This document shows, piece by piece, positions 10,596 to 61,976 of a stretch of 64,000 bases of DNA (position 1 is the first letter of the stretch; each line of letters opens with the position of its first letter). This DNA comes from Gemmatimonadota bacterium (lineage in GTDB: Bacteria > Gemmatimonadota > Gemmatimonadetes > Longimicrobiales > Gaopeijiaceae), in NCBI GenBank assembly GCA_028873595.1, contig JAPPOV010000033.1:295165-359164 (forward strand). The letters are read 5' to 3'. The translations under genes were made by a program, and so were the position numbers. The notes beneath the pieces were generated by a model, which made no database searches, had not been told where the DNA came from, and was given only the letters and a program-made list of their open reading frames with translations.

Positions 10596-11239
10596 CGTTC
10601 CAGGATCGTTACGTCGAGTCTCGAGATGTGCAGGTTCAGGCCGTGGTTCACCCTGAAGCCGTACGTGCCGTCGACCCCGACGTCTGTACGTGACATCTCC
10701 TCGACACGGTCACCGTTTACGTGGAATCGAACCCGATCGCCTACTGCTTCGATCATGAGGACGTTCTTTACGGAGGTGTCGTCTCCACGGTCTGAGTAGG
10801 AGAGGATCGAGTTGTGGCCGGTCCATGGTTGGACAGTTGGCGCTTCGGCGCCCTCGCGACGCTTGATGATGTACTGCCCACCGTTGCGAATCAGGAAGTA
10901 CGTGTACCTCTGGCCGGCGCCCTGCAGGTCGCTTCCACCCAGGAAGATGCCGAAGGCCTCGCGCCGCTGCCCGGGATCGAAAAGGAAGACTTCCATCTCG
11001 ATTCGGAAGTCACCAGAGGCTGTATTGTCGGGATGATAGAAGATTCCCGCCGGGCCGGTCGTAACGTGCCAACCGGGGGGCATCCCGACGAACATGTCGA
11101 GATCAGCTTCCGATGCATCCGCATGGTCGAAACGAGTCATCCAGCCTTCGGGCCGCTCCAGGTCCTGAGCCTGGACGATTTGAGGACTCGCGACGAGCGT
11201 GACGAGGGACGAGGCGGTCAGAATGGTACGGCGCAGCAT
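10592..11239 (-). CDS. Secreted concanavalin-like (DUF1080-type) protein
   Basis: 215 aa. Signal peptide 1-24 ends in V-Q-A-Q. The rest is beta-rich, with the pattern of DUF1080/3-keto-disaccharide hydrolase-like lectin domains: GWHVTTGPAGIFYHP, then GDFRIEMEVFLFDPG, IFLGGSDLQG, YFLIRNGGQYIIKRR and a terminal G-F-R-V-N-H-G-L-N-L-H-I-S. Proteins of this fold bind or hydrolyse carbohydrate derivatives in the periplasm, but no catalytic residues are assignable here. A monocistronic arrangement is likely, since the neighbours face other directions. Confidence 0.7.
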   Translation of the reverse strand: MLRRTILTASSLVTLVASPQIVQAQDLERPEGWMTRFDHADASEADLDMFVGMPPGWHVTTGPAGIFYHPDNTASGDFRIEMEVFLFDPGQRREAFGIFLGGSDLQGAGQRYTYFLIRNGGQYIIKRREGAEAPTVQPWTGHNSILSYSDRGDDTSVKNVLMIEAVGDRVRFHVNGDRVEEMSRTDVGVDGTYGFRVNHGLNLHISRLDVTILER

Positions 11240-11377
11240 CGAAGGCTCCTGGCCGGAAGCGATGGGATGTGGCGAAGCTCGGAAGGCCGGAGCAGAGTGT
11301 CAATTTCCTGCGCCTGCCCGAAAGGGTGTGCTCCTCTTCTCACCTCGATACGTTGAGCGCGTACGCCATGACCATCG

Positions 11378-45492: not shown

Positions 45493-47958
45493 ATGAAGAC
45501 GCTGGCCGTTTCGACGACGCTGATGGGCGTACTGTTCATCGTGTCGGGCGCGCGCCTGCCGGATGTGCCGGTTCGCTCACCGCGCGCGGTCGGAGGAACG
45601 GTCGCAGAGTCTGCTGGCGCCCGGGTCTCCAACGACCGGGTTGCTCAGGATCAGGCCCTCATTGACGAGTATTGCGTCCGCTGCCACAGCGAGCGTCGAC
45701 TGCGTGGAAACCTCTCTCTGGAGAACTTCGACGTCTCGGCACCGCACCAGTCACCGGCGACGGCCGAGAAGATGATCGTGAAGCTTCGGGCCGGCATGAT
45801 GCCTCCACCGGGTGCGGCCCGGCCCGAGGAGTCGGCTCTCACGGAGCTTGTCGAGGGCCTCGAAGCGAGGATGGATCGGGCGGCCGAAGAGCGTCGCGAA
45901 CCAGGCGGGCGAACCTTCCAGCGGTTGAACCGTGCTGAATACGCCGGATCGATCGAGTCTCTTCTCGGACTGGCGATCGATCCGGCCAACTATCTCCCTC
46001 TCGACACCAAGAGCGAGAATTTCGACAACATTGCCGACGTTCAGATGCTGTCACCCACGCTGCTCGATGCGTACCTGACGGCAGCGGCCGATATCGCCCG
46101 CCTGGCAGTCGGGGATCTCGAGGCCGGTAATCGGGAGCACACCTACACGGTCTCCGGATACACGTCTCAGGCGAGTCGGGTGGACGGGGCGCCCTTCGGA
46201 ACGCGTGGTGGCACCTCTGTGGTGCACAACTTCCCGGCCGACGGTGACTACGTGTTCACCATCGTCTTTGAGCACACTACGACCGGCGCGGGCTTCGCGG
46301 GTCAGCTGGCCCGTGATGAGCAAGTGGAGATCTCGATCGACGGGGAGCGGGTAGCGCTGATCGATGTCGACACCTGGCTGTCGTACTCCGATTCGTGGGG
46401 CATCACGATGCGGACGGATCCGATTGCGGTGCGGGCCGGTCCTCGTCGCGTCACCGCTGCCTTCCTGACGACTGCGGAGGGGCCGGCTGAAGACCTGCTC
46501 TCTCCTCACGACTGGTCGATCGCGGACCGCCACACCGGGATGAGTGGGTATGGTCTGACACTCCTGCCGCATCTTCGTGACCTCGTCATCGGCGGACCGA
46601 CGCGCGTCACCGGAGTGTCCGATCACCCTGTTCGGGAACGGCTCTTTTCCTGCCGCCCGACCGAAGCATCCGAGGAACGCCCGTGTGCGGAGCAGATCAT
46701 CCGGGACGTCGCGTCCGACGCGTACCGACGTCCGCTCGAGCCTCGAGACGTCGAGGGTCTTCTGGGGTTCTACGACGAGGGGGCGGCCGAGGGTGGGTTC
46801 GAGATCGGTGTGCGTACGGCGCTTCAGGCGATCCTCGCGAGCCCGCACTTCGTCTTCCGATTCGAGCGGGGGCAGCGCTCCGTTCATGACGGTGCATACC
46901 AGATCAGCGATCATGCGCTGGCGTCCCGCCTCTCGTTCTTCCTCTGGGCCCTCCCGCCCGACGAGGAATTGCGTACGCTCGCCGGGGAGGGCCGACTCTC
47001 GGATGATGGTGTCCTGCGCGACCAGGTCCGTCGCATGCTCGCCGATCCTCGGTCGGAGGCCCTCGGATCCCGCTTCGCCGGCCAGTGGCTTCGCCTTCAG
47101 GATCTCGACAAGGTTCACCCGGACTCCTACTGGTTCCCCGATTATGACCAGCAGCTCGCCGACGCGATGCGCTCGGAAACAGAGCTGTTCTTCACGAACC
47201 TGGTCCGTGAGGACCGGTCGATTCTCGATCTGTACACGGCCGATTATTCGTTCGTGAACGAGCGGCTCGCCGATCATTACGACATGGATGGCGTTCGTGG
47301 CGACACGTTCCGTCGAGTCCGTTATCCTGACGATCGTCGACGTGGCCTCCTCGGGCACGGAAGCGTCCTCACTCTGACCTCCCACGCGGATCGGACATCT
47401 CCTGTGCTGCGAGGAAAGTGGGTTATGGAAGTGCTCATGGGCACTCCGCCGCCGCCACCTCCTCCAGGTGTGCCGGATCTCGAAGAGACCGAGGGGTCGA
47501 TGGGTGGCCGTGCGCTCAGCACGCGAGAGCGGATGGAGGCTCACCGGGCCAACCCGACATGCAATTCGTGCCACCGCTTTATCGACCCGATTGGTCTCGC
47601 TCTTGATAGCTACGACGTGACGGGTCGTTGGCGCATCCGCGAGCACGGGGCCCCGATCGACACGCGGGGTGAGCTGTACGACGGGACCCCGATCGATGCG
47701 CCCGGGGCTCTCATCGACGCGCTGCTTCGGCGCCCTGAGCCGCTCCTGCGGACCTTCACGGCGAACCTGATGGCGTATGGACTCGGTCGCCGTGTCGAAT
47801 ACGCAGACCAACCCGCCGTTCGCGCGATCGTGCGTGATGCGGCCGAAGCCGACTACCGCGTATCGAGTTTCGTGCTCGGCGTGGTCATGAGCGATGCCTT
47901 TCGCATGCAGTCCGCGGAGACCATCGCAGCGGAAACGTTCAGTCGTGCTGGAGGATAG
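45493..47958 (+). CDS. Exported PSCyt/DUF1592-family di-haem-motif protein, paralogue A
   Basis: 821 aa from the ATG at 45493 (a GTG at 45448 is the alternative). A signal peptide covers about 1-22. First haem motif C-V-R-C-H at 61-65, followed by RRLRGNLSLENFD and KLRAGMMPPPG. DUF1587-like block F-Q-R-L-N-R-A-E-Y-A-G-S-I-E-S-L-L-G near 145, then a carbohydrate-binding-like beta region (about 220-340), DUF1595 (P-C-A-E-Q-I-I-R-D near 395), DUF1592 and DUF1588 (ARFGEE-like E-R-L-A-D-H-Y and a Pro run at about 650-657), a second motif C-N-S-C-H at 690-694, and DUF1585. Planctomycete-type cytochromes of this family act in the periplasm; electron partners are unknown. First gene of the A-B operon. 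Confidence 0.9.
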   Translation: MKTLAVSTTLMGVLFIVSGARLPDVPVRSPRAVGGTVAESAGARVSNDRVAQDQALIDEYCVRCHSERRLRGNLSLENFDVSAPHQSPATAEKMIVKLRAGMMPPPGAARPEESALTELVEGLEARMDRAAEERREPGGRTFQRLNRAEYAGSIESLLGLAIDPANYLPLDTKSENFDNIADVQMLSPTLLDAYLTAAADIARLAVGDLEAGNREHTYTVSGYTSQASRVDGAPFGTRGGTSVVHNFPADGDYVFTIVFEHTTTGAGFAGQLARDEQVEISIDGERVALIDVDTWLSYSDSWGITMRTDPIAVRAGPRRVTAAFLTTAEGPAEDLLSPHDWSIADRHTGMSGYGLTLLPHLRDLVIGGPTRVTGVSDHPVRERLFSCRPTEASEERPCAEQIIRDVASDAYRRPLEPRDVEGLLGFYDEGAAEGGFEIGVRTALQAILASPHFVFRFERGQRSVHDGAYQISDHALASRLSFFLWALPPDEELRTLAGEGRLSDDGVLRDQVRRMLADPRSEALGSRFAGQWLRLQDLDKVHPDSYWFPDYDQQLADAMRSETELFFTNLVREDRSILDLYTADYSFVNERLADHYDMDGVRGDTFRRVRYPDDRRRGLLGHGSVLTLTSHADRTSPVLRGKWVMEVLMGTPPPPPPPGVPDLEETEGSMGGRALSTRERMEAHRANPTCNSCHRFIDPIGLALDSYDVTGRWRIREHGAPIDTRGELYDGTPIDAPGALIDALLRRPEPLLRTFTANLMAYGLGRRVEYADQPAVRAIVRDAAEADYRVSSFVLGVVMSDAFRMQSAETIAAETFSRAGG

Positions 47959-47982
47959 AAGATCCCTCAAGGGACAAGAACC

Positions 47983-49389
47983 ATGAATGTGATCACTGGA
48001 AACCACATCGAGCGACGAACCTTCCTCAAGGGGATGGGCAGCACTGTCGCGCTCCCGTTCCTGGACGCGATGATCCCCGCGGGCCGGATGGCCGCCGGCG
48101 CGATCGACGACCCGACCCGCTTTGTCGCGATCGAACTCGTGCACGGAGCCGCGGGGTGCAGTGAATGGGGTGCGAGCCAGAACCTCTGGGATCCGGCGCA
48201 GGTCGGACGCGACTTCGACCTGGCCCCCAGCGCGCTGAGGCCCCTCGAGGAATGGCGAAAGTGGATGACCATCGTCAGCAACACGGACGTCCGCATGGCG
48301 GAGGCGTTCGAAGCCAACGAGATCGGCGGGGATCACTTCCGTTCGAGCGCTGTCTTCCTGACGCAGTCGCACCCCAAGCAGACACGGGGCTCGGACGTCT
48401 TTGCGGGAACTTCGATGGATCAGATCTACGCTCGGCGCTTCGGACAGGACACTCCGATCCCGAGCATGCAGCTCTGCATCGAGCCGGTTGATCAGTCCGG
48501 TGGGTGTGCGTACGGCTACTCCTGTGTCTACACCGACACAATCAGTTGGGCGTCACCCACAGAGCCGCTTCCCATGATCCGCGATCCACGTGTCGTCTTC
48601 AACATGCTCTTCGGGGCTGGCAGCACATCGGAGGATCGGGCTGCACGCCGACGCACGAACAGTAGCATCCTCGACTGGATCACGGGCGAGATCGCCCACC
48701 TGAAACGGGAACTCGGGCCGAACGACATGCAGAGGCTCGACCGCTACCTCGACAACGTACGGGAGATCGAGCGGCGGATTCAGGCGGTCGAGGCGCAGAA
48801 CTCGACCGGCGAAGAGCGTCAACTTCCGGGGGCGCCGGCGGGTGTGCCGGACTCATTCGAGGAGCACATGCGTCTCATGTTCGATCTGCAGGCGCTTGCC
48901 TTCGCTTCGGACATGACGCGGGTCTTCTCATTCAAGACGGGACGCGATGCTTCTGGCCGGGTTTATCCGGAAAGTGGCACGGATCGCCCGTTCCACCCGG
49001 CATCGCATCACGGCGGTCGTGAGGAGGCGATTCTCGATTTTCAGAAGATCAACGAGTACCACGTGAGCATGCTTCCGTACTTCCTCGAGCGGCTCCAATC
49101 TCTGGACGAGGGCGATACGGACCTGCTCGAGAAGACGATGATCGTCTTCGGCTCACCCATGGCAGACGGAAATGTCCACAACCATCGACGCTGCCCGCTT
49201 GTCCTGTTGGGTGGAGCGAATGGTCAGTTGGAGGGTGGCCTCCATCTCAAGGCTCCGGATGGTACACCGATGGCGAATGTCATGCTGACGCTGATGCACA
49301 AGCTCGGTATGGAGGACATGCGAAGCTTCGGTGACAGCACAGGTGACTTCTCGCTGACGCTGCCGTACTCGGCCGCGTCGGCGGGCTGA
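47983..49389 (+). CDS. DUF1552 protein with twin-arginine signal, paralogue A
   Basis: 468 aa. Tat-like N-terminus E-R-R-T-F-L-K-G (9-16) with a hydrophobic stretch and cleavage region A-G-R-M. DUF1552 body includes F-V-A-I-E-L-V-H-G, NTDVRMAEAFEANEIGGDHF, QSHPKQT, P-S-M-Q-L-C-I-E and PFHPASHHGGREEAI near residues 330-344, whose His residues could bind metal. The protein is folded before export, consistent with cofactor loading in the cytoplasm. DUF1552 genes usually sit beside DUF1592-family genes; no activity is known. It follows its PSCyt partner by 24 bp and precedes paralogue B by 19 bp. Confidence 0.9.
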   Translation: MNVITGNHIERRTFLKGMGSTVALPFLDAMIPAGRMAAGAIDDPTRFVAIELVHGAAGCSEWGASQNLWDPAQVGRDFDLAPSALRPLEEWRKWMTIVSNTDVRMAEAFEANEIGGDHFRSSAVFLTQSHPKQTRGSDVFAGTSMDQIYARRFGQDTPIPSMQLCIEPVDQSGGCAYGYSCVYTDTISWASPTEPLPMIRDPRVVFNMLFGAGSTSEDRAARRRTNSSILDWITGEIAHLKRELGPNDMQRLDRYLDNVREIERRIQAVEAQNSTGEERQLPGAPAGVPDSFEEHMRLMFDLQALAFASDMTRVFSFKTGRDASGRVYPESGTDRPFHPASHHGGREEAILDFQKINEYHVSMLPYFLERLQSLDEGDTDLLEKTMIVFGSPMADGNVHNHRRCPLVLLGGANGQLEGGLHLKAPDGTPMANVMLTLMHKLGMEDMRSFGDSTGDFSLTLPYSAASAG

Positions 49390-49408
49390 CGCCGATACGA
49401 GGAACGAC

Positions 49409-51889
49409 ATGTTCGGACTGAAATCGACGGTAGCCTTCGGGGCACTCGGCTCACTTCTCGTCTTTGTGGTGGACGGAAGTGCGCCGGCTGACACTCGATG
49501 GGTTACCGACCCAGGGGCCAGGTCTGCAGAGAACGTCGGGGTCTCGGCCACTGATCACAGGTTGTCTGTGATCGACGAGAACACGGTGATCCAGGAGTAC
49601 TGCGTCCGCTGCCACTCCGATCGGCGTCTGCGCGGAAACCTCTCGCTCGAATCGTTCGACATGGAACAACCTCATCTCCAGGGTGAGGTCGCGGAGAAGA
49701 TGGTCGTGAAGCTCCGGGCGGGCATGATGCCACCCCCGGGCGTCGCGAGGCCTGCGGGCGACACGCTCAAGATTCTGGTCGAAGCCCTCGAGGGGCGCCT
49801 TGATCGGATCGCGGAAGAAAATCCGAACCCAGGTGGGCGCACGTTCCAGCGGCTCAATCAGGCCGAATACGCTGCGTCGATTCGGGATTTACTCGGGTTG
49901 GAGATCGACGGAGCGGATTATCTGCCGCCGGACACCAAGAGTGCGAATTTCGACAACATCGCCGACGTTCAGATGCTGTCGCCGACACTGCTCGACGCAT
50001 ACCTGAATGCGGCGGCCGAGGTGAGTCGTCTGGCGTTGGGGGACCCGCACGCGACCTCGACGGAGACCCAATACCGTGTGCCGCGCTGGGCGTCGCAGAC
50101 GGAGCGTGTCCCCGGTGCGCCCTATGGTACCCGTGGAGGGGTGTCGGTCGTGCACACCTTCCCGGCCGATGGGGAGTACGTGTTCCGCTTTTCGTTCCAC
50201 CACGAAACGACGGGAACTGCGGTCGGCAACGGAGCGTCGGCGCTGAATACGACGCCGGACAGCCCCGAGCAGATCGAGATCTCAGTCGATGGTGAGCGTG
50301 TCGCGCTCATGGACATCGACCGTTGGATGCACGTTTCGAACCCCGAGAGTGTCGAGATGCGCACTCCGCCGATCGCGGTGCCGGCCGGACCGCATCGGGT
50401 CACCGCCGCGTTCATCATGAAGGCCGACGGACCGGTACAGGACCTCATCTCGCCCCATGACTGGTCTCTGGCGAGCACTGCCATCGCGGGGACGTATGGG
50501 GTCATGTCGCTGCCGCATCTGCGTGATCTGGTCGTCGTTGGGCCCGAGAGTGTGACCGGAGTGTCGGACACGCCGATTCGGCGCGCAGTCTTCACCTGCC
50601 GCCCGACCAGCTCCGAGGACGAGCGGCCGTGTGCGTCCTCCATTATCGAGCGGCTTGGCGCCGCAGCGTTCCGCCGGCCGCTTACGGACGAGGATCGTGA
50701 TGCGCTCATGGGCTTCTACGACTACGGTGCGGAGGACGGCGGATTCGAGATCGGAGTTCGGACTGCGCTCGAAGCGATGCTCGCGAGCCCTCACTTCGTC
50801 TTTCGCTTCGAGGAAGCGCCGGAGGATGTACGACCCGGTGCGCTGTACCCGATTCAGGACGCGGACCTGGCGGTTCGGCTCTCGTACTTCCTTTGGGGTC
50901 TTCCGCCCGATGCAGAGCTGCGAGAGCTGGCCGAGCGCGGTGAACTCTCCGACGAGGATGTGTTGGAAGATCAGGTTCTACGCATGCTGGCCGACCCGCG
51001 CGCTGAGGCACTCGGGCCTCGCTTTGCCGCGCAGTGGCTGCGGCTGCAGGACCTCGACAAAGTCCATCCGGACGTCCGTCTCGAGCCCGATTTCCATCAA
51101 CAGCTCGCCGACGACATGCTGGAGGAGACCGAGCGCTTCTTCACGAGCCTGGTTCGGGAGGACCGCCCGATCTTCGAGTTGTATACGGCTGATTACACCT
51201 TCCTGAACGAACGGCTCGCGCGGCACTACGGGATCGAAGGAGTCACAGGCAACGACTTTCGCCGTGTACCGTATCCCGACGATATGCGCCGTGGCGTACT
51301 GGGCCACGCGAGTGTGCTCACGCTGACGTCGCAGGCCGGTCGGACCTCGCCCGTTCTGCGCGGGAAATGGGTCATGGAGGTCATCATGGGGACGCCTCCG
51401 CCCCCGCCACCTCCAGGGGTTCCTACGCTCGAGGAAACCGAGGAATCGGATGGAGGGCGTGTACTGACGACGCGGGAGCGGATGGAGATCCACCGCAAGA
51501 ATCCGACGTGTAATGCGTGCCATCGGTTCATGGATCCCATCGGGCTGTCACTCGACAGTTATGGGGTCACCGGGAAGTGGCGTGTGCGTGAGAACGGAAA
51601 CCCGCTCGATACGCGTGGTGATTTCTACGACGGCACGGAGATCCATAACCCGCTGCAGTTGCAGCAGGCTCTTCTCCGACGACCGATCCCATTGGTGCGG
51701 ACCTTCACGTCCAATCTCATGGCTTATGGTCTCGGCCGTCGTGTCGAATACTTCGACCAGCCGGCTGTCCGGCAGATTGTGCGAGAGGCCGAAGAACAGA
51801 ACTACCGGATGTCGGCCTTCTTCCTGGGGGTGGTGAAGAGCGACGCCTTCCGGATGCAGAGCGTGTCGACGTCGGCCGAAGACAACTAG
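49409..51889 (+). CDS. Exported PSCyt/DUF1592-family di-haem-motif protein, paralogue B
   Basis: 826 aa, ATG start. Short signal (about 1-27). Haem motifs C-V-R-C-H at 65-69 and C-N-A-C-H at 701-705. Domain order matches paralogue A: DUF1587 near 150, a beta-rich insert (about 225-350, including a 16-residue loop around TTGTAVGNGASALNTT absent from A), DUF1595, DUF1592, a Pro-rich P-P-P-P-P-P-P stretch near 662, DUF1588 and DUF1585 ending in F-F-L-G-V-V-K-S-D-A-F-R-M-Q. Covalent haem c attachment in the periplasm is predicted from the CxxCH motifs. It begins 19 bp after the DUF1552-A stop, so A and B are one transcript. Confidence 0.9.
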   Translation: MFGLKSTVAFGALGSLLVFVVDGSAPADTRWVTDPGARSAENVGVSATDHRLSVIDENTVIQEYCVRCHSDRRLRGNLSLESFDMEQPHLQGEVAEKMVVKLRAGMMPPPGVARPAGDTLKILVEALEGRLDRIAEENPNPGGRTFQRLNQAEYAASIRDLLGLEIDGADYLPPDTKSANFDNIADVQMLSPTLLDAYLNAAAEVSRLALGDPHATSTETQYRVPRWASQTERVPGAPYGTRGGVSVVHTFPADGEYVFRFSFHHETTGTAVGNGASALNTTPDSPEQIEISVDGERVALMDIDRWMHVSNPESVEMRTPPIAVPAGPHRVTAAFIMKADGPVQDLISPHDWSLASTAIAGTYGVMSLPHLRDLVVVGPESVTGVSDTPIRRAVFTCRPTSSEDERPCASSIIERLGAAAFRRPLTDEDRDALMGFYDYGAEDGGFEIGVRTALEAMLASPHFVFRFEEAPEDVRPGALYPIQDADLAVRLSYFLWGLPPDAELRELAERGELSDEDVLEDQVLRMLADPRAEALGPRFAAQWLRLQDLDKVHPDVRLEPDFHQQLADDMLEETERFFTSLVREDRPIFELYTADYTFLNERLARHYGIEGVTGNDFRRVPYPDDMRRGVLGHASVLTLTSQAGRTSPVLRGKWVMEVIMGTPPPPPPPGVPTLEETEESDGGRVLTTRERMEIHRKNPTCNACHRFMDPIGLSLDSYGVTGKWRVRENGNPLDTRGDFYDGTEIHNPLQLQQALLRRPIPLVRTFTSNLMAYGLGRRVEYFDQPAVRQIVREAEEQNYRMSAFFLGVVKSDAFRMQSVSTSAEDN

Positions 51890-51932
51890 AACGAGTAAAG
51901 CCAACGCGCCTCAGGCGCTGGAGAGTGACCCG

Positions 51933-53339
51933 ATGCAGTTTCTGACGGGAAAGCACATGAAGCGGAGGACCTTCCTGCAGGGGATGGGTGCGACTGTCGC
52001 ACTGCCGCTCCTCGACTCGATGGTCCCTGCCGGCCGCCTACGTGGGTCGCTGGCGGATGATCCCACTCGCCTCGTTGCGATCGAACTGGTCCATGGGTGC
52101 GCGGGAAGTAACGATTGGGGCGCGAGCCAGAACCTGTGGGCGCCTGCCGATGTGGGACGGAACTTCGACCTTTCGCCGAGCGCGCTGCTCCCGCTTGATC
52201 CGTGGCGTGAATACCTCACGATCATCAGCAACACCGATGTTCGCATGGCGGAGGCGTTCGAGCCCAATGAGATCGGAGGTGACCACTTCCGGTCGAGCGC
52301 GGTCTTCCTGACTCAGTCGCATCCGAAACAGACAGAGAGTTCTGACGTGTACGTCGGGACCTCTCTGGATCAGATGCACGCCAACCGCTTCGGTCAGGGC
52401 ACGCCGATCCCGTCGATGCAGCTGTGTATCGAGAATGTGGATCAGGCCGGAGGGTGCGCGTACGGGTACTCGTGTGTGTACACGGACTCGATCAGCTGGC
52501 GCGCTCCGACCGAGCCGCTCCCGATGATTCGTGATCCGCGTGTCGCGTTCGATCTCCTCTTCGGAGCGGGAGGTTCGCCGCAGGAGCGGGCCCGTCGTCG
52601 TCGCACGAGCAGCAGCATCCTGGACTGGATCTCGGATGACATCGCTCGAATGCGACGGACGCTCGGCCCGAACGACTACGCTCGCCTCGACCGGTACCTC
52701 GAGAACGTGCGTGAGATCGAACGGCGCATTCAGGGCGTCGAGGCCCAAAATGCGTCTGGTGAGGAGCGTGCTCTGCCGGGCGCGCCGGCTGGCGTGCCTG
52801 ACTCCTTCACGGAGCACATGCAGCTGATGTTCGACCTGCAGGCGCTCGCCTTCGCGTCGGACATGACCCGGGTCTTCTCCTTCAAGACCGGAAGGGATGC
52901 ATCGTCGAGAGTCTATCCGGAAAGTGGGACGGACACTCCGTTTCACCCTGCGTCTCACCACGGTGGACGTGAGGACGCGATTCTCGATTTCGCGGTGATC
53001 AACAAGTACCACGTCAGTATGCTCCCGTACTTCCTCGAGAAGCTCCGCGATATCGATGAAGGTGGTACCAACCTTCTCGAGAAGACGATGATCATCTTCG
53101 GGTCGCCAATGGCGGATGGGAATGTCCACAACCACCGACGTGCCCCGCTCGTCGTGCTGGGCAAGGCGAACGGAAAACTCGAGGGCAATGTGCACCTCAA
53201 GGCTCCGGATGGGACGCCGATGGCGAATGCGATGCTGTCGATGATGCACACGCTCGGGCACGACGATATGGACAGCTTCGGAGACAGCACGGGCGAGTTC
53301 TCGCTGAACCAGGGCTCTGCGATGTCGCCCGACCGATGA
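51933..53339 (+). CDS. DUF1552 protein with twin-arginine signal, paralogue B
   Basis: 468 aa. Tat motif K-R-R-T-F-L-Q-G (9-16), preceded by M-Q-F-L-T-G-K-H. Same body blocks as paralogue A, including NTDVRMAEAFEPNEIGGDHF, P-S-M-Q-L-C-I-E-N-V-D-Q and PFHPASHHGGREDAI. It is 43 bp behind its PSCyt partner. The stop overlaps the start of the ankyrin gene by ATGA (53336-53339), so expression of the two is coupled. Confidence 0.9.
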   Translation: MQFLTGKHMKRRTFLQGMGATVALPLLDSMVPAGRLRGSLADDPTRLVAIELVHGCAGSNDWGASQNLWAPADVGRNFDLSPSALLPLDPWREYLTIISNTDVRMAEAFEPNEIGGDHFRSSAVFLTQSHPKQTESSDVYVGTSLDQMHANRFGQGTPIPSMQLCIENVDQAGGCAYGYSCVYTDSISWRAPTEPLPMIRDPRVAFDLLFGAGGSPQERARRRRTSSSILDWISDDIARMRRTLGPNDYARLDRYLENVREIERRIQGVEAQNASGEERALPGAPAGVPDSFTEHMQLMFDLQALAFASDMTRVFSFKTGRDASSRVYPESGTDTPFHPASHHGGREDAILDFAVINKYHVSMLPYFLEKLRDIDEGGTNLLEKTMIIFGSPMADGNVHNHRRAPLVVLGKANGKLEGNVHLKAPDGTPMANAMLSMMHTLGHDDMDSFGDSTGEFSLNQGSAMSPDR

Positions 53340-55153
53340 GGCTTCGGGTGCACCTCCTCTGGGGGCTGGCTTCCACCCTCGCTCTCTGGAGCGCGGCTGG
53401 TTCCGAGGCACCCGTCGCGGATGCCGCCATGCGGGGAGATGTCGCGGAAGTGGAGGCGCTTCTTCGGTCGGGCGCGGACGTGAACGCAGCTCAGGGGGAT
53501 GGTATGACGGCCCTGCATTGGGCCGCCGAGCTCGGGAACACCAGTCTCGCCGAGATGTTGATTGCCGCGGGTGCATACCCCGATGCGGTGACCCGCCTGG
53601 GTGACTTCACGGCGCTACACGTGGCTGCCGGAGCAGGCCAGGGGGGCATCGTTGAAGTGCTTGCGGAAGCTGGCGCCGATCTCGACGCTCGAACCTCGAC
53701 CGGCGGTGTGACTCCGTTACACTACGCGGCTGCCTCCGGCAGTCAGCACGCGGTTGCGGTACTGCTCGAGCACGGGGTCAGGGTCGACGCTCGTGAGAGT
53801 GCTTGGCTTCAGACGCCCCTCATGTTCGCGGCAGCAGCCGGCCGAACCGAGGTCGTTCGGGCGCTTGCTGCTGCAGGAGCTGACCCTTCGCTGACCGCTC
53901 GCGTCATGGACATGGATGCGCGTGAGCAACAGGACCGGGCCGACCAGCGACGGCAGGAGGAAATCCAAAGTCGAATTCTCACGGCGCGCGACGGCCGCGC
54001 GCCAGAGCGTCGGGGCGGGTACGGTGAACCCACCGGTGCCCGTCAGGCTGAGCGACAGGACAGTGCCCGCTCGGCGGAGGAAGCAGCGACACCGTCTCGT
54101 CAGGATATCAACAACCAGCAGCGCGATCGTGTGCCATCTTCGCGCTTCTCCCACGCTCAACTCGTAGGAGGGTACGGCGGACTCACCGCGCTTCATCTCG
54201 CGGTGCGAGAAGGCCACATCGGCACCGCGGAAGCGCTTCTGGAGTCGGGTGCCGATATCAACCAGCCGACCGAAGGTGACGGTACCCCGCCTCTCTTGAT
54301 GGCGACGGTCAACGGCCATTTCGATCTGGCCATGCGTCTATTCGAGAGGGGTGCAGACCCGAACCTGTCCAACGACGCGAATGCGACACCGTTGTACACG
54401 GTCATCAACGCGCAGTGGATTCCAAAGTCACGGCACCCGCAGCCAGCGGATTACCTGCAGCAGCAGGTGACGTACATGGACCTCGTTCGTGCCTTTCTGG
54501 GTGCTGGTGTGGATGTGAATGTCCGCCTCGATAAGCAGTTGTGGTTCACCACGTTCGGAGATGACTACCTCCGTACGGATCGCATGGGAGCGACGCCCTT
54601 CTGGAGGGCTGCCTACGCGCTCGACCTGCCGCTCATGGAGTTGCTGGTCGAACATGGAGCGGACCCGAGTATTCCGACGAAGAAGACGGTTCGTCCTCGA
54701 TTCGGCGCCGGCGCCATCCGCAACATCGAAACCGGTGCGAACGATCCTTCGGGACTTCCGCCCGTGCCACCGGGGGGACCTGGAGTCTATGCGATTCACG
54801 CGGCATCCGGAGTGGGCTACGGTGAGGGCTTCGCGGCCAATATCCACCGTGTGGTGCCCGACGGCTGGCTACCCGCGGTGCGGTACCTCGTGGAGGAGCT
54901 TGGCGCTGATGTGAATCAGCGAGACCATAACGGCTATACGGCCATGCACCACGCAGCGGCGAGAGGTGACGACGAGATGATCCGGTACCTGGTATCCCAG
55001 GGCGGCGACGTGATGGTTCTGAGTCGTCGTGGTCAGACGACCGTCGATATGGCCAACGGCCCGGTTCAGCGGATTAGCCCGTTCCCCTCGACGATCGCAC
55101 TGCTCGAGAGCCTCGGGGCGATCAATAACCACAACTGCGTCAGCTGCGAGTGA
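53336..55153 (+). CDS. Exported ankyrin-repeat protein with C-terminal CVSCE motif, cassette B
   Basis: 605 aa. A signal peptide (about 2-23) is followed by ankyrin repeats in two blocks: about 26-200 (ADVNAAQGDGMTALHWAAE, DARTSTGGVTPLHYAA, GRTEVVRALAAAGADP) and about 280-600. They are separated by a charged Gln/Arg-rich linker (about 195-275, likely coiled or disordered). The chain ends L-E-S-L-G-A-I-N-N-H-N-C-V-S-C-E-stop; this C-x-x-C-E tail is shared with the cassette C protein and is the only Cys pair. Ankyrin solenoids bind proteins; this one would act in the periplasm or on the surface, perhaps holding the PSCyt and DUF1552 partners. Coupled to DUF1552-B. Confidence 0.88.
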   Translation: MRLRVHLLWGLASTLALWSAAGSEAPVADAAMRGDVAEVEALLRSGADVNAAQGDGMTALHWAAELGNTSLAEMLIAAGAYPDAVTRLGDFTALHVAAGAGQGGIVEVLAEAGADLDARTSTGGVTPLHYAAASGSQHAVAVLLEHGVRVDARESAWLQTPLMFAAAAGRTEVVRALAAAGADPSLTARVMDMDAREQQDRADQRRQEEIQSRILTARDGRAPERRGGYGEPTGARQAERQDSARSAEEAATPSRQDINNQQRDRVPSSRFSHAQLVGGYGGLTALHLAVREGHIGTAEALLESGADINQPTEGDGTPPLLMATVNGHFDLAMRLFERGADPNLSNDANATPLYTVINAQWIPKSRHPQPADYLQQQVTYMDLVRAFLGAGVDVNVRLDKQLWFTTFGDDYLRTDRMGATPFWRAAYALDLPLMELLVEHGADPSIPTKKTVRPRFGAGAIRNIETGANDPSGLPPVPPGGPGVYAIHAASGVGYGEGFAANIHRVVPDGWLPAVRYLVEELGADVNQRDHNGYTAMHHAAARGDDEMIRYLVSQGGDVMVLSRRGQTTVDMANGPVQRISPFPSTIALLESLGAINNHNCVSCE

Positions 55154-55190
55154 TGGTTTAGCGCGGGTACGAACTCGGGCGGCCAGGGGC

Positions 55191-55583
55191 TCAGCCTCCG
55201 GCACCTCCCTCTTCCAGTTCGGCCATGACTTCTTCGAACATCGTCCGAAGGTCGCTGTCGAGACTGATCAGTAACGTCATCTGATCGTACTCCTCACGGG
55301 TCATTTCGGCTTCCTCGAGAATTGCATCGAGGGCCGTCTCGACCTCTTCGCGCGCCCGGATGCGGCCCTCCGGGTCGTGTACGCGCGCGACCGCTCCATG
55401 AAATTCATCCCGCACATCATTGACGGCGATGTGCACCCGCACGAACTCGACCATCCGTTCTCGGTCTATCGCGATGTCGAGGTCCTGGGCGGCGATTGGC
55501 TTCGCGGAGGCAAGTCCGGCCAATGCCGTGACAGCCGTCAGGACCAGCGCCTTGAGGAAGGCGCGTCGGGGCATCTTCATCAT
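55191..55583 (-). CDS. DUF4168 domain exported protein
   Basis: 130 aa from the first ATG of an ATGATG pair at 55583, with AGGAACG upstream; the open frame to 55757 would collide with the FmdB gene. N-terminal P-R-R-A-F-L-K-A-L-V (about 4-13) looks Tat- or Sec-like, with a signal to about residue 31 (P-I-A-A-Q). The rest is helical and acidic (ERMVEFVRVHIAVNDVRDEF, EEAEMTREEYDQMTLL), the DUF4168 pattern of periplasmic helical proteins. Converges with the ankyrin gene, with 37 bp between stops. Confidence 0.75.
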   Translation of the reverse strand: MMKMPRRAFLKALVLTAVTALAGLASAKPIAAQDLDIAIDRERMVEFVRVHIAVNDVRDEFHGAVARVHDPEGRIRAREEVETALDAILEEAEMTREEYDQMTLLISLDSDLRTMFEEVMAELEEGGAGG

Positions 55584-55718
55584 CGTTCCTGTCTCAATTC
55601 CTGTTCGATGCACTCCAACGGATCCCGGAGCGGGGCAGGGAGTACCGTTGCTCAGTGAAGGTCGTTCGGCGTACCGTGAGGACCAAGAGTAGACGAACTC
55701 CCGACCGGGGATACCATC

Positions 55719-55967
55719 ATACCGATCTACGAATACTCCTGCCAAGACTGCGGCCACGACTTCGAGGCTCTTGTCCGCGGCGAGGAGACGCCAACCTGCC
55801 CGAAGTGCGAGAGCACTTCACTCGAGCGCAAGTTCTCGCTTCCCACGGCTCATACGTCGGGCACTCGAGATATGGCGATGCGGGCGGCGAAGCGCCGTGA
55901 TCAGCGCCAGGGTGCGGAACGGATGCATGCACAGCGCGAGTACGAGTTGAACCACGACGATCACTAG
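55719..55967 (+). CDS. FmdB-family zinc-ribbon protein with no canonical start codon
   Basis: 82 codons read I-P-I-Y-E-Y-S-C-Q-D-C-G-H-D-F, then C-P-K-C-E-S-T-S-L-E-R-K-F-S, a standard FmdB/CxxC_CxxC zinc ribbon (Cys8, Cys11, Cys27, Cys30). Family members start M-P-I-Y-E-Y, but here the first codon is ATA, and back to the upstream stop at 55677 there is no ATG, GTG or TTG in frame. An ATC precedes the ATA. A GGGGA stretch 8-12 nt upstream could serve as a weak SD. The C-terminal half is Arg- and Gln-rich. Either ATA or ATC initiation, a damaged start codon, or a base error. Divergent from DUF4168. Confidence 0.7.
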   Translation: MPIYEYSCQDCGHDFEALVRGEETPTCPKCESTSLERKFSLPTAHTSGTRDMAMRAAKRRDQRQGAERMHAQREYELNHDDH

Positions 55968-56199
55968 TGGCACGATGAGGGGACGAGCGAGCTTCATCGC
56001 GACTGTTTAGATCCTCCGGGGACGTTCCTCCGTGCTGGCTGCTGCGAATCGGGGTGCGTATAATGGAGATCGTCGCCCAACGCCTTGTTTCCTCAACGAT
56101 CCGGCACGGTCGCGGGTCTTATCCAGGTAGAGGAACCGATTGCTGGGCAAACACTTTGTCAAACGAGAACCAGGTGCCTCACGAGGGGTCTGAACAGGT

Positions 56200-58647
56200 A
56201 TGAAGACGATCAGCGTCACCCTCGTTGGTGCGGGCACGATTCTGCTTCTGTTCGGTGCCCAGGACGTCAGCTTTACGTCGCTCTCGCGTTCGTATGTCGC
56301 GCCTGTCGAGTCTCTGGACGAGCGGGTGGCCTGGACACCGCAGACGGACCAGGAGCTCATCGAGGAGTACTGCGTCCGCTGTCACAGCGATCGTCGCCTG
56401 CGCGGAAATCTTTCTCTGGAGACGTTCGACGCCTCGGCCCCCCATGTTCAGGGGGAGGTCGCCGAGAAGATGATCCTGAAGCTCCGGGCCGGTATGATGC
56501 CTCCTCCGGGCGTTTCGCGACCCGCGGGGGACTCGCTCATGTCGCTCGCCGCTTCGCTCGAGCAGCGGGTCGATGACGTCGCCGCTCGGGACCCGAATCC
56601 GGGTGGCCGTAGCTTCCAGCGGCTGAACCAGGTCGAATACGCTCGCTCCGTTCGGGACCTGCTGGGACTGGAGATCGATCCTTCGGCGTTTCTCCCACTC
56701 GATACGAAGAGCGCCAATTTCGACAACATCGCCGACGCGCAGATGATCTCTGCGACGCTGCTCGATTCGTATCTGAACGCAGCCGCCTCGATCGCTCGTC
56801 TCGCGGTGGGCGACCCTGAAGCGGCTGCGAGTTCTTCTACGTATACGAACCCCGGATACGCCTCTCAGTGGGAGCGGGTCGAGGGTGCGCCATACGGGAC
56901 GCGCGGAGGCATCTCCGTGGTGCACAACTTCGTTGCGGACGGCGAATACGAGTTCCGCCTCGCTTTCGAGCATACGACGACCGGAGGGTACTTCGGCGGC
57001 GTCACCCGCGGCGAGCAAATCGAGGTGTCGGTCGACGGCGAGCGTGTCGCGCTGGTCGAAATGGACCGGTGGATGAGCGTGGCTGACCCCAATGGGGTCA
57101 ACATGCGCACGGAGCCGATCTTCGTCCGCGCGGGCCCTCGCCGCGTCACCGCGGCCTTCCTGAAGCAGACCGAGGGGCCGGTCGACGACATGCTCTCGCC
57201 GCACGACTGGTCGCTCTCGGATCGGCAGATCGGTGTCCGTGGATATGGAATCACCTCGCTGGCCCATCTGAAGGATCTCGTCGTCGCTGGACCGACGAAC
57301 GTCACCGGCGTCTCCGAGACCCCGTCGCGCGAGCGGATCTTCACGTGCCGCCCGACCCGGCCCGACGAGGCTCCGGAGTGTGCGGCGCGTATCATCGAAC
57401 AGCTGGGCCCGCAGGCGTTTCGTCGGCCGCTCACGGATGGTGATCGTGAGGCCCTGATGGGCTTCTACGAGTTGGGTGTGGACGAAGGTGGCTTCGAGGT
57501 CGGTGTGCGTACCGCGATCGAAGCGATGCTGGCCAGCCCGGATTTCGTCTTCCGTATGGAAGAGGCTCCGTCGAACGTCGAACTCGGCGACAGCTACCGG
57601 ATCTCGGATGCTGATCTGGCGACGCGGCTCTCATACTTCTTGTGGGGTCTGCCCCCGGACGAGGAATTGCGCTCCATCGCGGCAGAGGGGCGGCTTTCCG
57701 ACGAAGACGAACTGGAGCGTCAGGTGTCACGGATGCTCGCCGATCCGCGCTCGGACGCGCTGTCCACCCGGTTTGCCGCTCAGTGGTTGCGGCTGGACGA
57801 TCTCGACAAGGTCCACCCCGATCGGCTGCTGTACCCTGACTTCCATCAGCGACTGGCCGACGATCTCCGACGCGAGACCGAGCTCTTCTTCGCCAATCTC
57901 GTGCGGGAGGACGGTAACGTGTTCGATCTGTTCACGGCCGACTACTCGTTCATGAACGAGCGCGTGGCGCGTCACTACGGGATCGATGGAATCGTCGGTG
58001 AGGATTTTCGTCGTGTCGAGTATCTGGACGACAACCGCCGTGGGCTCCTGGGCCATGCGAGTATTCTCACGCTGACCTCCGTCGCCGGACGCACCTCACC
58101 GGTTCTCCGCGGCAAGTACGTGATGGAGGTCATCATGGGAACACCGCCGCCGCCGCCGCCGCCGAACGTCCCAACGCTCGAAGAAACGGAAGGTGCGGCT
58201 GATGGTCGTATGCTTACCACCCGTGAGCGGATGGAACAGCATCGGGCGAACCCGACGTGCAACGCGTGCCATTCGTTTATGGATCCGATCGGGCTCGCCC
58301 TCGACAGCTACGATGTCACGGGCCGCTGGCGGATCCGGGAAAACGGCATGGCCCTCGATACGCGTGGTGAACTCTACGATGGCACGCCGGTTACGAGCCC
58401 GACGTCGCTCAACGAGGCGCTGATGGTCCGCCCGACCATTCTGGTCCGCAACTTCACACAGAACTTGATGGCCTACGGCCTGGGGCGCCGGGTGGAGTAC
58501 TACGACCAGCCCGCAGTGCGATCGATCGTGCGTGAGGCGGAAGAAAGCGATTGGCGCTTGTCTTCGTTCGTGTTGGGTGTTGTGAAGAGTGATGCCTTCC
58601 AGATGCAGAAAGCCGGAGCCGTCGCCGACGGGGCCGATCAGGATTAG
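56200..58647 (+). CDS. Exported PSCyt/DUF1592-family di-haem-motif protein, paralogue C
   Basis: 815 aa, ATG start. The signal peptide covers about 1-22, with a weak hydrophobic core. Haem motifs C-V-R-C-H at 58-62 and C-N-A-C-H at 687-691. Domain order as in paralogues A and B, with DUF1587 block F-Q-R-L-N-Q-V-E-Y-A-R-S-V-R-D-L-L-G near 143, DUF1595 (P-E-C-A-A-R-I-I-E-Q), DUF1592, a poly-Pro segment near 646-653, DUF1588 and DUF1585. It is preceded by a 232-bp gap that must hold its own promoter, unlike paralogue B. Confidence 0.9.
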   Translation: MKTISVTLVGAGTILLLFGAQDVSFTSLSRSYVAPVESLDERVAWTPQTDQELIEEYCVRCHSDRRLRGNLSLETFDASAPHVQGEVAEKMILKLRAGMMPPPGVSRPAGDSLMSLAASLEQRVDDVAARDPNPGGRSFQRLNQVEYARSVRDLLGLEIDPSAFLPLDTKSANFDNIADAQMISATLLDSYLNAAASIARLAVGDPEAAASSSTYTNPGYASQWERVEGAPYGTRGGISVVHNFVADGEYEFRLAFEHTTTGGYFGGVTRGEQIEVSVDGERVALVEMDRWMSVADPNGVNMRTEPIFVRAGPRRVTAAFLKQTEGPVDDMLSPHDWSLSDRQIGVRGYGITSLAHLKDLVVAGPTNVTGVSETPSRERIFTCRPTRPDEAPECAARIIEQLGPQAFRRPLTDGDREALMGFYELGVDEGGFEVGVRTAIEAMLASPDFVFRMEEAPSNVELGDSYRISDADLATRLSYFLWGLPPDEELRSIAAEGRLSDEDELERQVSRMLADPRSDALSTRFAAQWLRLDDLDKVHPDRLLYPDFHQRLADDLRRETELFFANLVREDGNVFDLFTADYSFMNERVARHYGIDGIVGEDFRRVEYLDDNRRGLLGHASILTLTSVAGRTSPVLRGKYVMEVIMGTPPPPPPPNVPTLEETEGAADGRMLTTRERMEQHRANPTCNACHSFMDPIGLALDSYDVTGRWRIRENGMALDTRGELYDGTPVTSPTSLNEALMVRPTILVRNFTQNLMAYGLGRRVEYYDQPAVRSIVREAEESDWRLSSFVLGVVKSDAFQMQKAGAVADGADQD

Positions 58648-58679
58648 ACGAGTCACGTGGCCGAAGTACCCGGCCGCTC

Positions 58680-58685
58680 GAGGAG
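58680..58685 (+). promoter_or_regulatory. Ribosome binding site GAGGAG fixing the DUF1552-C start
   Basis: GAGGAG ends 7 nt before the ATG at 58693. This supports 58693 over the in-frame GTG at 58657, which has no SD. Confidence 0.75.
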
Positions 58686-58692
58686 AGCAGTT

Positions 58693-60108
58693 ATGCACTT
58701 CATAAGTGGGAAGCACATGGAGCGCCGGACCTTCATTCAGGGAATGGGGGCATCGATTGCGCTTCCGTTTCTGGATGCCATGGTCCCCGCGGGGCGTCTC
58801 AGCGCAGCGAAGGCCGCCGAAGTGGATCCGACCCGTCTCGTCGCGATCGAGATGGTCCACGGCGCCGCCGGCTGCAACGAATGGGGAGCGACACAGAATC
58901 TGTGGGCGCCGTCGACAGTTGGTCGGAACTTCGACCTTTCGCCGAGTGCACTCCAGCCGCTCGATGCGTGGCGTGATTATCTGACGATCATCAGCAACAC
59001 CGACGTCCGGATGGCCGAAGCGTTCCAGGCGCCCGAGATCGGCGGTGACCACTTCCGTTCCAGCGCGGTCTTTCTGACGCAGGCGCATCCGAAGCAGACT
59101 GAGGGCTCGGACGTCTTTGTCGGGACGTCTCTCGACCAGATGCATGCCGAGCGTTTCGGCCAGGATACACCGATTCCGTCCATGCAGCTTTGCATCGAGA
59201 ACATCAACCAGTCCGGTGGGTGTGCCTACGGCTACACCTGCGTCTATACGGACTCCATTTCCTGGGCCTCGCCTACGGAGCCGCTCCCGGTGATCCGCGA
59301 TCCCCGTGTGGCGTTCGAACAGCTGTTCGGTGCCGGAGGTACGGCGAAGGAGCGCGCGCTACGTCGCCGCACTTCCGCGTCGATTCTCGACTGGGTGACC
59401 GGACGGATCGATCAGCTCCAGCGGGAGCTCGGACCGAATGACCGCGCACGCCTCGAGCGCTATCTGCAGAACGTCCGAGAACTCGAGCGACGCATCCAGA
59501 TGGTCGAGGCGCAGAATTCGACCGGTCAGGAGCGAGAGTTGCCATCGGCGCCGGCCGGCGTCCCCGACTCCTTCGAGGAGCATGTGCAACTCATGTTCGA
59601 TCTGCAGGCGCTCGCCTTCGCGTCGGACACGACACGGGTCTTCTCGTTCAAGATGGGACGAGATTCATCCGCCCGGGTCTTCCCGGAGAGTGGCACGGAC
59701 AAGCCGTTCCACCCGGCATCACATCACGGTGGACGCGAGGAGGCAATTCTCGACTTCCACCTGATCAACAAGTACCACGTCAGCATGCTGCCGTACTTCC
59801 TCGAGAAGCTGTCCGCGATTCAAGAGGGTGACTCGCACCTGCTCGACAAGACGATGATCATCTACGGCTCTCCGATGGCGGACGGGAACCTCCACAACCA
59901 TCGGCGTGCGCCGTTGATCGCGCTCGGCGGGGCCAATGGGGCCATGGAGGGCAACATCCACCTCAAAGCACCCGACGGCACGCCGATGGCGAACGCGATG
60001 CTCAGCTTCATGCACGCGCTCGGTCACACCGACATGGATAGCTTCGGCGACAGCACCGGCGACCTCTCGCTCACGATGCCGATGTCGTCGGCTCCGGCGC
60101 AGGGTTAG
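58693..60108 (+). CDS. DUF1552 protein with twin-arginine signal, paralogue C
   Basis: 471 aa from the ATG at 58693. Tat motif E-R-R-T-F-I-Q-G (9-16). Same conserved blocks as the other two copies: A-A-G-C-N-E-W-G-A, NTDVRMAEAFQAPEIGGDHF, P-S-M-Q-L-C-I-E-N-I-N-Q and PFHPASHHGGREEAI. It is 45 bp after its PSCyt partner and 8 bp before the ankyrin gene. Confidence 0.9.
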   Translation: MHFISGKHMERRTFIQGMGASIALPFLDAMVPAGRLSAAKAAEVDPTRLVAIEMVHGAAGCNEWGATQNLWAPSTVGRNFDLSPSALQPLDAWRDYLTIISNTDVRMAEAFQAPEIGGDHFRSSAVFLTQAHPKQTEGSDVFVGTSLDQMHAERFGQDTPIPSMQLCIENINQSGGCAYGYTCVYTDSISWASPTEPLPVIRDPRVAFEQLFGAGGTAKERALRRRTSASILDWVTGRIDQLQRELGPNDRARLERYLQNVRELERRIQMVEAQNSTGQERELPSAPAGVPDSFEEHVQLMFDLQALAFASDTTRVFSFKMGRDSSARVFPESGTDKPFHPASHHGGREEAILDFHLINKYHVSMLPYFLEKLSAIQEGDSHLLDKTMIIYGSPMADGNLHNHRRAPLIALGGANGAMEGNIHLKAPDGTPMANAMLSFMHALGHTDMDSFGDSTGDLSLTMPMSSAPAQG

Positions 60109-60116
60109 GCGGGCGT

Positions 60117-61976
60117 ATGGCACGACGGGCCGGAAAAGACGGGGTTCGACTGCGGTCGTACGCGTCGCTGGCGCTCGGACTCACGATGTTTCTGTGGGCT
60201 GGAGTACCCGCAGAAGCGCCGGTCGCGGATGCCGCCATGCGTGGCGATGTGGAGTATGTGCGGCAATTGTTGCGCGCAGGTGAAGACGTAAACGCAGCTC
60301 AGGGCGATGGGATGACCGCGCTCCATTGGGCGGCTGAGAGCGGCAACGCAGAGCTGGCGGAAATGCTGTTGTACGCCGGTGCCAATGTCGGTGCGGTGAC
60401 GCGACTCGGGGACTACACACCACTTCACGTTGCGAGCAGAGCGGGTCGCGATGCCGTGGTGTCGGTGCTTCTGGGCGCGGGTGCGGACGTCGATGCAGGC
60501 ACATCGACGGGTGGAGTGACGTCGCTGCACTTCGGCGCAGCCTCCGGGAATCGTGCGGTCGTCGATGCGCTCGTGCGGGCAGGGGCCGATGTCGACATTG
60601 TAGAGACCCGCCGTGGTCAGACGGCTCTGATGTTCGCCGCGTCCGCGGGGCGCACCGACGTCGTGCGTGCGCTGATGGCGGCTGGAGCCGACGTATCGCT
60701 GACGAGCTTCGTCGTCGACATACCTCGGGTCGCGGCGGAAGACCGCGCAGCCGGTAACGTTCGTAACGAGGTCTTGGCCGCCTTCAGAGGAGACGTACCA
60801 TCGGGCACGTCGTGGCAGCCTTCACCGGCCGAGGTGCAGGCCGCCGTTCGTGCGGCAAATGCTGCACGTGTCGATGCGGCGGACGCCGGTCCTGATCAGC
60901 GTCGTGACGAACCGCTTCCCGATCCTGACCTGGGTGAAGTCGCGATAAGCTCCAACGATCAGACCGGTGACGAATACAGCAACAGCTACGCCGACCTTGT
61001 CTACCGACAGGGAGGCTTGACTGCGCTACACCATGCCGTGCGTGAAGGCGAAGCCGAGACCGTGTTCGCTCTGCTCGACGGCGGTGCGGCGATTGACCAG
61101 CGAACTGCGGGTGACCTGACGAGCCCGATGCTCATGGCGGTCGTGAACGGTCACTTCGACCTCGCGCTCGCTCTTCTGGAGCGAGGTGCAGACCCGAACG
61201 TCTCGAGCCACGCGAACCTCACTCCCATGTACGCAGCGATCAACACGCACTGGGCACCCAAGGCGCGTTATCCGCAGCAGCAGGCATATCAACAGCAGCA
61301 GGCGACGCACCTCGATGTCGTGCGGGCGATGCTCGACGCGGGTGCGGACCCGAATGTCCGACTGTCGAAGCACCTGTGGTTTATGGAGTACACATTCAGC
61401 CAGCTGGATGTGGACACTCGGGGGGCCACGCCGTTCTGGCGGGCGGCATACGCACTCGACCTGCCTGCGATGCGGATGCTCATGGAGGCTGGGGCCGACC
61501 CGAACATCCCCACGATGAAGGCGCCTTCACGACGCTTCGCGTTCGCGCCACCGGGCTCGGCGACCGACCCCTCGGGCCTTCCTCCGGTCCCGGTCGGTGG
61601 GCCTGATGTCTCCCCGATCCATGCGGCCACGGGCCATGCGTACGGAACCGGATTCGCCGGCGTGTCGCATCGCCATGCGCCTGACGCCTGGCTCCCGGCT
61701 GTTCAGTATCTCGTCGAGGAACTCGGTGCCGATGTGAATGCGCGTGATGCCAATGGCTTCGCTCCGCTGCATTGGGCGGCATCTCGTGGGGATAACGAGG
61801 TCATTCTCTACCTCGTGGACAAAGGTGCGGACGCTTCGGTCGTCAGTCGTCGCGGGCACACGACCGCTGATATGGCGAACGGGCCGGTGCAGCGGATTTC
61901 ACCTTTCCCGGAGACGATCGAATTGCTCGAGAGCCTCGGGTCGAAGAACAACAACAACTGCGTGAGCTGCGAGTAG
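60117..61976 (+). CDS. Exported ankyrin-repeat protein with C-terminal CVSCE motif, cassette C
   Basis: 619 aa. A signal peptide (about 10-33) is followed by ankyrin repeats 33-210, a charged linker (about 210-290) and repeats 290-610, matching the cassette B protein throughout; for example G-D-G-M-T-A-L-H-W-A-A-E and NGPVQRISPFPETIELLESL near the end. The C-terminus is N-N-N-N-C-V-S-C-E. There are no other cysteines, so the pair is under selection. It lies 8 bp after DUF1552-C and is followed by a strong terminator. Confidence 0.88.
   Translation: MARRAGKDGVRLRSYASLALGLTMFLWAGVPAEAPVADAAMRGDVEYVRQLLRAGEDVNAAQGDGMTALHWAAESGNAELAEMLLYAGANVGAVTRLGDYTPLHVASRAGRDAVVSVLLGAGADVDAGTSTGGVTSLHFGAASGNRAVVDALVRAGADVDIVETRRGQTALMFAASAGRTDVVRALMAAGADVSLTSFVVDIPRVAAEDRAAGNVRNEVLAAFRGDVPSGTSWQPSPAEVQAAVRAANAARVDAADAGPDQRRDEPLPDPDLGEVAISSNDQTGDEYSNSYADLVYRQGGLTALHHAVREGEAETVFALLDGGAAIDQRTAGDLTSPMLMAVVNGHFDLALALLERGADPNVSSHANLTPMYAAINTHWAPKARYPQQQAYQQQQATHLDVVRAMLDAGADPNVRLSKHLWFMEYTFSQLDVDTRGATPFWRAAYALDLPAMRMLMEAGADPNIPTMKAPSRRFAFAPPGSATDPSGLPPVPVGGPDVSPIHAATGHAYGTGFAGVSHRHAPDAWLPAVQYLVEELGADVNARDANGFAPLHWAASRGDNEVILYLVDKGADASVVSRRGHTTADMANGPVQRISPFPETIELLESLGSKNNNNCVSCE

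Follow-up and report, generated by a model that had tools for sequence, protein, structure and literature searches.

Three gene cassettes lie in tandem in the window analysed here, a stretch of 64,000 nucleotides from a Gemmatimonadota bacterium, and each of them joins a large di-haem DUF1592 protein to a DUF1552 protein, with an ankyrin-repeat protein as third member in two of the three. The question that they raise is whether these genes form one unit, of which the ankyrin is a true component, and what such a unit might do in the cell envelope. The sequence-only reading from which we started had its gene content right, as all eight genes are present with the domains and at the places claimed, and the three DUF1592, three HXXSHH (DUF1552) and two ankyrin proteins score far above the Pfam cut-offs (Table 1).

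Table 1. Features of cassettes A, B and C of the window, and of two related gammaproteobacterial clusters (positions of the respective locus).
Feature	Position	Strand	Basis or remark
A1, di-haem DUF1587/1595/1592/1588/1585 protein	45493..47958	+	Pfam; longest ORF start 45448
A1, CxxCH motifs	45673-45687, 47560-47574	+	
A1, RAGMMPP	45787-45807	+	candidate Met ligand
A2, twin-arginine DUF1552 protein	47983..49389	+	Pfam; ankyrin gene absent 3'
A2, HPASHH and DGNVHNH motifs	48994-49011, 49165-49185	+	
B1, di-haem DUF1592 protein	49409..51889	+	CxxCH 49601-49615, 51509-51523
B1, predicted CBM6/35/36-like beta-sandwich (approximate)	50051..50563	+	residues about 215-385; structure model
B2, twin-arginine DUF1552 protein	51933..53339	+	HPASHH 52944-52961; DGNVHNH 53115-53135
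B3, ankyrin-repeat protein, predicted to be exported	53336..55153	+	C-terminal CVSCE 55136-55150; stop to 55153
C1, di-haem DUF1592 protein	56200..58647	+	CxxCH 56371-56385, 58258-58272
C2, twin-arginine DUF1552 protein	58693..60108	+	longest ORF start 58657; HPASHH 59710-59727; DGNLHNH 59881-59901
C3, ankyrin-repeat protein, predicted to be exported	60117..61976	+	C-terminal CVSCE 61959-61973; stop to 61976
CBM2/flavocytochrome-haem/Cbp2D-cytochrome/DUF1592 fusion + DUF1552 + flavin subunit	L216 4241-10730; L217 3962-10638		

The first gene of every cassette encodes a protein of about 820 residues with exactly two CxxCH motifs, as had been claimed, and with all five domains of the set DUF1587, DUF1595, DUF1592, DUF1588 and DUF1585 (PSD3, PSD5, PSD4, PSCyt3 and PSD2, respectively), which exceed their curated Pfam cut-offs in A1, B1 and C1 and in 16 relatives. 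A2, B2 and C2 combine a match to PF07586 above its cut-off with the HxxSHH motif, and the ankyrin proteins B3 and C3 are 59% identical. The measured gaps agree with the tight spacing of 8-45 bp that had been reported: 24 bp between A1 and A2, 19 between A2 and B1, 43 between B1 and B2 and 8 between C2 and C3, with a 4-bp ATGA overlap of B2 and B3, while C1 and C2 are 9 bp apart, or 45 bp if C2 starts at the aligned ATG. The start proposed earlier for A1 fits the paralogues better than that of the longest ORF. Each of the 93 DUF1552 relatives compared has the twin-arginine residues; Pfam TAT_signal matches to the window proteins fall below the cut-off, and export was otherwise judged by eye from signal-like N-termini.

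Two further reading frames occupy the 1046 bp between B3 and C1. One, on the forward strand (55680-55967), is an FmdB-like zinc-ribbon ORF (IIPIYEYSCQDCGHDFEALV...) in which ATG, GTG and TTG are absent near the conserved beginning; its ATC-ATA-CCG-ATC start region is common to the window and to the loci L041 and L051, as if translation began at a non-standard codon. The other, a short ORF on the reverse strand (55191-55757), has a signal-like N-terminus and no Pfam match, and a similar ORF sits after the ankyrin gene of L051.

The three cassettes had been described as a triplication, which is true of the window but understates the genome. In the whole assembly (3.2 Mb, 52 contigs) there are eight DUF1552 and eight DUF1592 genes, all of them paired, and an ankyrin gene is found in seven of the eight cassettes, including all five outside the window, so that cassette A alone is without one. 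Since all 30 Ank_2 matches of the genome fall within these seven genes, the ankyrin is no random member of a large ankyrin set. A, B and C do form a local cluster, and in the DUF1552 tree the A and B copies group together (support 92), with C beside another genome's copy; the five copies outside the window, however, lie on distant branches, next to those of other genera and phyla, which makes this an eight-copy paralogous family and not a mere triplication. The earlier suggestion that triplication gave rise to substrate-specific versions therefore fits in part at most. The flanking genes of the eight cassettes point to no single substrate.

A search of the gene neighbourhood in other organisms had been proposed as the way to check whether the three genes are a module, and their order clearly recurs outside this genome. 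Scanning the GTDB genomes with an alignment of the ankyrin yielded at least 546 confirmed relatives, from which 79 loci were kept, and the hosts are Gemmatimonadota, Acidobacteriota and Pseudomonadota MAGs and one Myxococcota MAG. Nearly all loci with enough upstream sequence have DUF1592, DUF1552 and ankyrin genes in this order, on one strand and tightly spaced, also in Acidobacteriota, Gammaproteobacteria and the Myxococcota MAG, and some contigs carry two triads in succession. The triad is thus conserved in at least four phyla. One locus (L065) is a clear exception and in another (L080) a DUF1552 gene was not detected, the others being contig ends. In seven further genomes reached via these loci, the DUF1552 loci read were again triads, apart from contig ends and L141, a tandem pair without an ankyrin of its own, while a search of a Myxococcota sample returned the one triad already known.

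The same picture was obtained close to the window's own lineage, where an ankyrin gene lies directly 3' of 91 of the 109 DUF1552 matches in 39 genomes, a proportion that, with the order kept in several phyla, upholds the claim of a conserved three-gene module. The remaining 18 matches comprise several orthologues of cassette A, contig ends and pairs with diverged ankyrins, among others. Twenty of these 39 genomes have both the DUF1552 and the ankyrin family, one has the ankyrin only and 18 have neither (Fisher p 3e-10, uncorrected for the relatedness of the genomes).

A few loci differ in their surroundings. SusC- and SusD-like genes, typed by their resemblance to Pfam-typed representatives, stand directly upstream of DUF1552-ankyrin in L050 (4100-11758) and L071 (3950-11758), in both of which a DUF1592 gene lies several kb downstream; such neighbours favour the glycan reading set out below. 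A creatininase-family gene precedes the DUF1592 gene of L009 by 55 bp on the same strand (10859-11764), and creatininase-like genes adjoin the cassette in a few other loci. In L056 an ORF for a lipoprotein-like protein of 434 residues without a family match (3842-5146) is placed between DUF1592 and DUF1552.

The three proteins also diverge in step. Across 71 triads their pairwise distances correlate with r 0.86-0.90, above all 999 permutations, as would fit inheritance as a unit, with a contribution from shared species history. In the DUF1552 tree a single long branch (support 100) leads to the ankyrin-associated proteins, and outside their clade canonical DUF1552 genes may lack an ankyrin. 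A single origin of the ankyrin together with this clade was considered and dropped, because three canonical DUF1552 genes of Gemmatimonadota adjoin a diverged ankyrin; the association therefore either predates the clade or has more than one origin. Moreover, some DUF1592-DUF1552 pairs have no ankyrin at all, so that the core can do without it.

Cassette A is the nearest example of such a pair. Its decay was dropped as an explanation, given that A2 and its orthologues keep the conserved residues of the ankyrin-associated DUF1552 family with one conservative Ala-to-Val change. The arrangement of A followed by B, in which the next DUF1552 gene comes about 3.0 kb downstream, is kept in eight genomes of the genus, this one included.

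A distinguishing mark of the ankyrin component is its last residues. A CxxC motif at the C-terminus or one residue before it is present in 93 of 97 ankyrin proteins compared, most commonly in the ending NNHxCxSC, and in 51 of them its cysteines are the only ones of the protein. At the level of the loci, 95 of 100 ankyrin ORFs end in this way, against 2 of 1872 neighbouring ORFs, and the motif is absent from the C-terminus of the three diverged ankyrins of canonical DUF1552 pairs. This C-terminal CxxC is a near-invariant and previously unnoticed hallmark of the component. A standard haem site was rejected for the tail, since none of the 97 proteins ends in CxxCH; it may have a redox, metal or assembly role.

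A conserved terminal dithiol resembles a thiol-exchange site, and this lends some weight to the main rival of the function that we propose below, namely that the ankyrin has no catalytic role and is a chaperone of the DUF1592 haem protein, delivering haem or keeping the CxxCH thiols reduced during maturation, in the manner of AnkB for KatB and Cj1386 for KatA. We consider this possible but doubtful. The attachment of c-type haems is normally the work of the general cytochrome c maturation machinery; the haem motifs are equally present in pairs that have no ankyrin, and cassette A lacks one and yet has kept its conserved residues. The likeness to AnkB-KatB, Cj1386-KatA and ank-katE lies in gene association, an ankyrin gene beside that of a haem enzyme, which in those systems is a catalase, with no DUF1552 partner, although the AnkB and Cj1386 ankyrins do set a precedent for haem binding and delivery to a partner (PMC7567364).

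Ankyrin proteins are common in symbionts, and some of the relatives found in the GTDB scan may be sponge-associated MAGs, so that one might take the exported ankyrins for eukaryote-like proteins directed at the cells of a host or predator, placed beside the pair for regulatory reasons only. This seems to us very improbable, because the link of the family to DUF1552 holds in different phyla and habitats, MAGs labelled as groundwater among them, because the three proteins diverge together, and because the NCBIfam effector matches of the ankyrin proteins are to the repeats only and far below cut-offs.

The DUF1592 protein gives more direct indications of function. Met-Pro-Pro follows the first CxxCH in 77 of 77 proteins, as in class I cytochromes c with His/Met ligands, to which this haem domain would then be comparable, and Cytochrome_CBB3 is matched by 16 of 16 members (PSCyt1, weakly, by 15 of 16). 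Searches of PDB sequences with DUF1552, DUF1592 and the N-terminal haem domain returned nothing significant, and that haem domain of the window cytochrome did not match 7b21, the solved cytochrome of Cbp2D. AlphaFold2 models of the DUF1552 and DUF1592 proteins, each made as a single chain from eight sequences, have a mean pLDDT of 48-49; the DUF1592 model is better at residues about 215-385, where Foldseek finds the carbohydrate-binding sandwiches of CBM36, CBM6, CBM35 and BcsB with E from about 1e-4. A CBM-like sandwich in the DUF1592 protein is thus predicted, and supported by structural comparison.

The strongest functional lead comes from homologues in two gammaproteobacterial genomes (L216 and L217). 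There, a single protein contains three CBM2 domains (E 8e-78), a flavocytochrome c di-haem domain (haem subunit 3vrd_A, E 1e-31), a domain matching 7b21 (E 1e-4) and the same five PSD domains as the window proteins, and it is followed by DUF1552 and then, in place of the ankyrin, by a flavocytochrome c flavin subunit (3vrd_B, E 3e-146). The two clusters have the look of a cellulose-anchored flavocytochrome. Kinship of the DUF1592 proteins with Cbp2D-type cytochromes, and a flavin subunit as the alternative third subunit, are thereby supported by sequence comparison. The published annotation of Cbp2D of Cellvibrio japonicus includes DUF1587 and c-type cytochrome domains (PMC8981238), and the L216 and L217 proteins unite CBM2, the Cbp2D cytochrome and the full DUF1592 set in one chain. 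Cbp2D-type proteins are recognised by CBM2 with X158, X183 and X132 redox domains, whereas the window proteins show domains of the DUF1592 set only; they have neither CBM2 nor the YceI-like domain, and differ further in their predicted internal sandwich and in the ankyrin in the third slot.

Without Cbp2D, growth on cellulose is slower, and the Cbp2D cytochrome is able to reduce LPMOs of the AA10 class, the only acceptor tested for a Cbp2D domain (PMC8981238). Given the domain set shared with CBM2/Cbp2D-type proteins, the DUF1592 protein could likewise donate electrons to LPMOs, with the other two proteins as accessories. That role is most unlikely and was rejected for this lineage, as a search for one class, AA10 (PF03067), found none in this genome or in 20 relatives. 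Somewhat better placed, although we regard it as unlikely, is a module that has nothing to do with glycans and serves the stress response or energy metabolism, for example by peroxidase-like di-haem chemistry or the oxidation of sulfur compounds. In its favour, the alternative third subunit is the flavin subunit of a sulfide dehydrogenase, and a DUF1552 gene and a PSD1 gene are among the stress-responsive genes of Rhodopirellula (PMC2754498); against it stand the CBM-like and CBM2 domains of these cytochromes and the carbohydrate-binding modules noted in other PSCyt proteins (PMC5615132). Flavocytochrome c sulfide dehydrogenase itself (FccAB) has flavin and haem subunits homologous to parts of the gammaproteobacterial version, neither of which is found in the window cassettes.

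For the DUF1552 protein, an alkaline-phosphatase-like fold is hinted at by comparisons that are suggestive only. The 50 Foldseek matches listed for its poor model are all autotaxin, LtaP or arylsulfatase, with E above 0.2, and profile comparison gave P 0.004 to DUF1501 (a profile built from a single sequence) and 0.015 to sulfatases, against 0.35-0.72 for control profiles, some of the alignments falling in the same C-terminal region.

That DUF1592 and DUF1552 genes co-occur was known, as the sequence-only reading had stated: in Planctomycetes and Verrucomicrobia, PSCyt3 genes adjoin a family of unknown genes, with function unknown (He et al. 2017, PMC5615132). The published pairs share the five PSD/PSCyt domains with the window cassettes; unlike the cassettes, they have no ankyrin partner reported in the main text of that paper, and most DUF1552 proteins studied here fall in a clade of their own, which has strong support and a long branch. 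No mention of the ankyrin component was found in the open PubMed Central literature, which omits most subscription journals, in line with the earlier impression that it is undescribed. The cassette is real and widespread, and it extends a known gene pair in a way that is apparently undescribed. The PSD1/DUF1553-DUF1501 and DUF1800-DUF1501 pairs, the latter an operon that moved with chitin synthase (PMC5122149), likewise join a helical to an exported partner, but their Pfam families differ from those of the cassette and their kinship to DUF1552 is weakly supported. In a family-level relative, L101 (11-2781), PSD1 adjoins DUF1501, and this PSD1 weakly matches DUF1800 (E 0.03), a hint of possible kinship among the helical partners.

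Of the readings considered, the best supported is that each cassette encodes one envelope system, periplasmic or on the cell surface, that would combine redox chemistry and hydrolysis in the processing of a glycan or glycoconjugate, a proposal that we hold tentatively and at somewhat less than even chances. The DUF1592 protein would be a glycan-docking cytochrome, with an N-terminal c-type haem that carries electrons, a CBM-like domain that binds the substrate, and a helical core and C-terminal c-type haem serving as the site of reaction or relay. The Tat-exported DUF1552 protein would act on the same substrate as a metal enzyme like those of the alkaline phosphatase superfamily. The ankyrin may be a dedicated third subunit that docks on this pair, its C-terminal CxxC forming a redox or assembly arm that exchanges electrons or thiols with a partner, and in some Gammaproteobacteria its slot is taken by the flavocytochrome c flavin subunit. 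It is also conceivable, though improbable, that the ankyrin is a mobile redox carrier whose tail swings between the DUF1592 haem centre and DUF1552 and so links thiol/disulfide chemistry to the oxidation and hydrolysis of an extracellular glycan, with the flavin subunit as its gammaproteobacterial counterpart; if so, the catalytic cycle would depend on a carrier, which is not known for the breakdown of polysaccharides.

Some environmental bacteria carry large numbers of DUF1592, DUF1552 and related genes, to which no function has been assigned. Here they are placed in a complete unit that has its own third protein and a near-invariant C-terminal motif, and that is bridged to a cytochrome whose part in cellulose use is known from experiment, so that a small set of defined genes would allow the function to be tested. 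Should the redox-glycan reading be true, a widespread route of polysaccharide turnover would be added.
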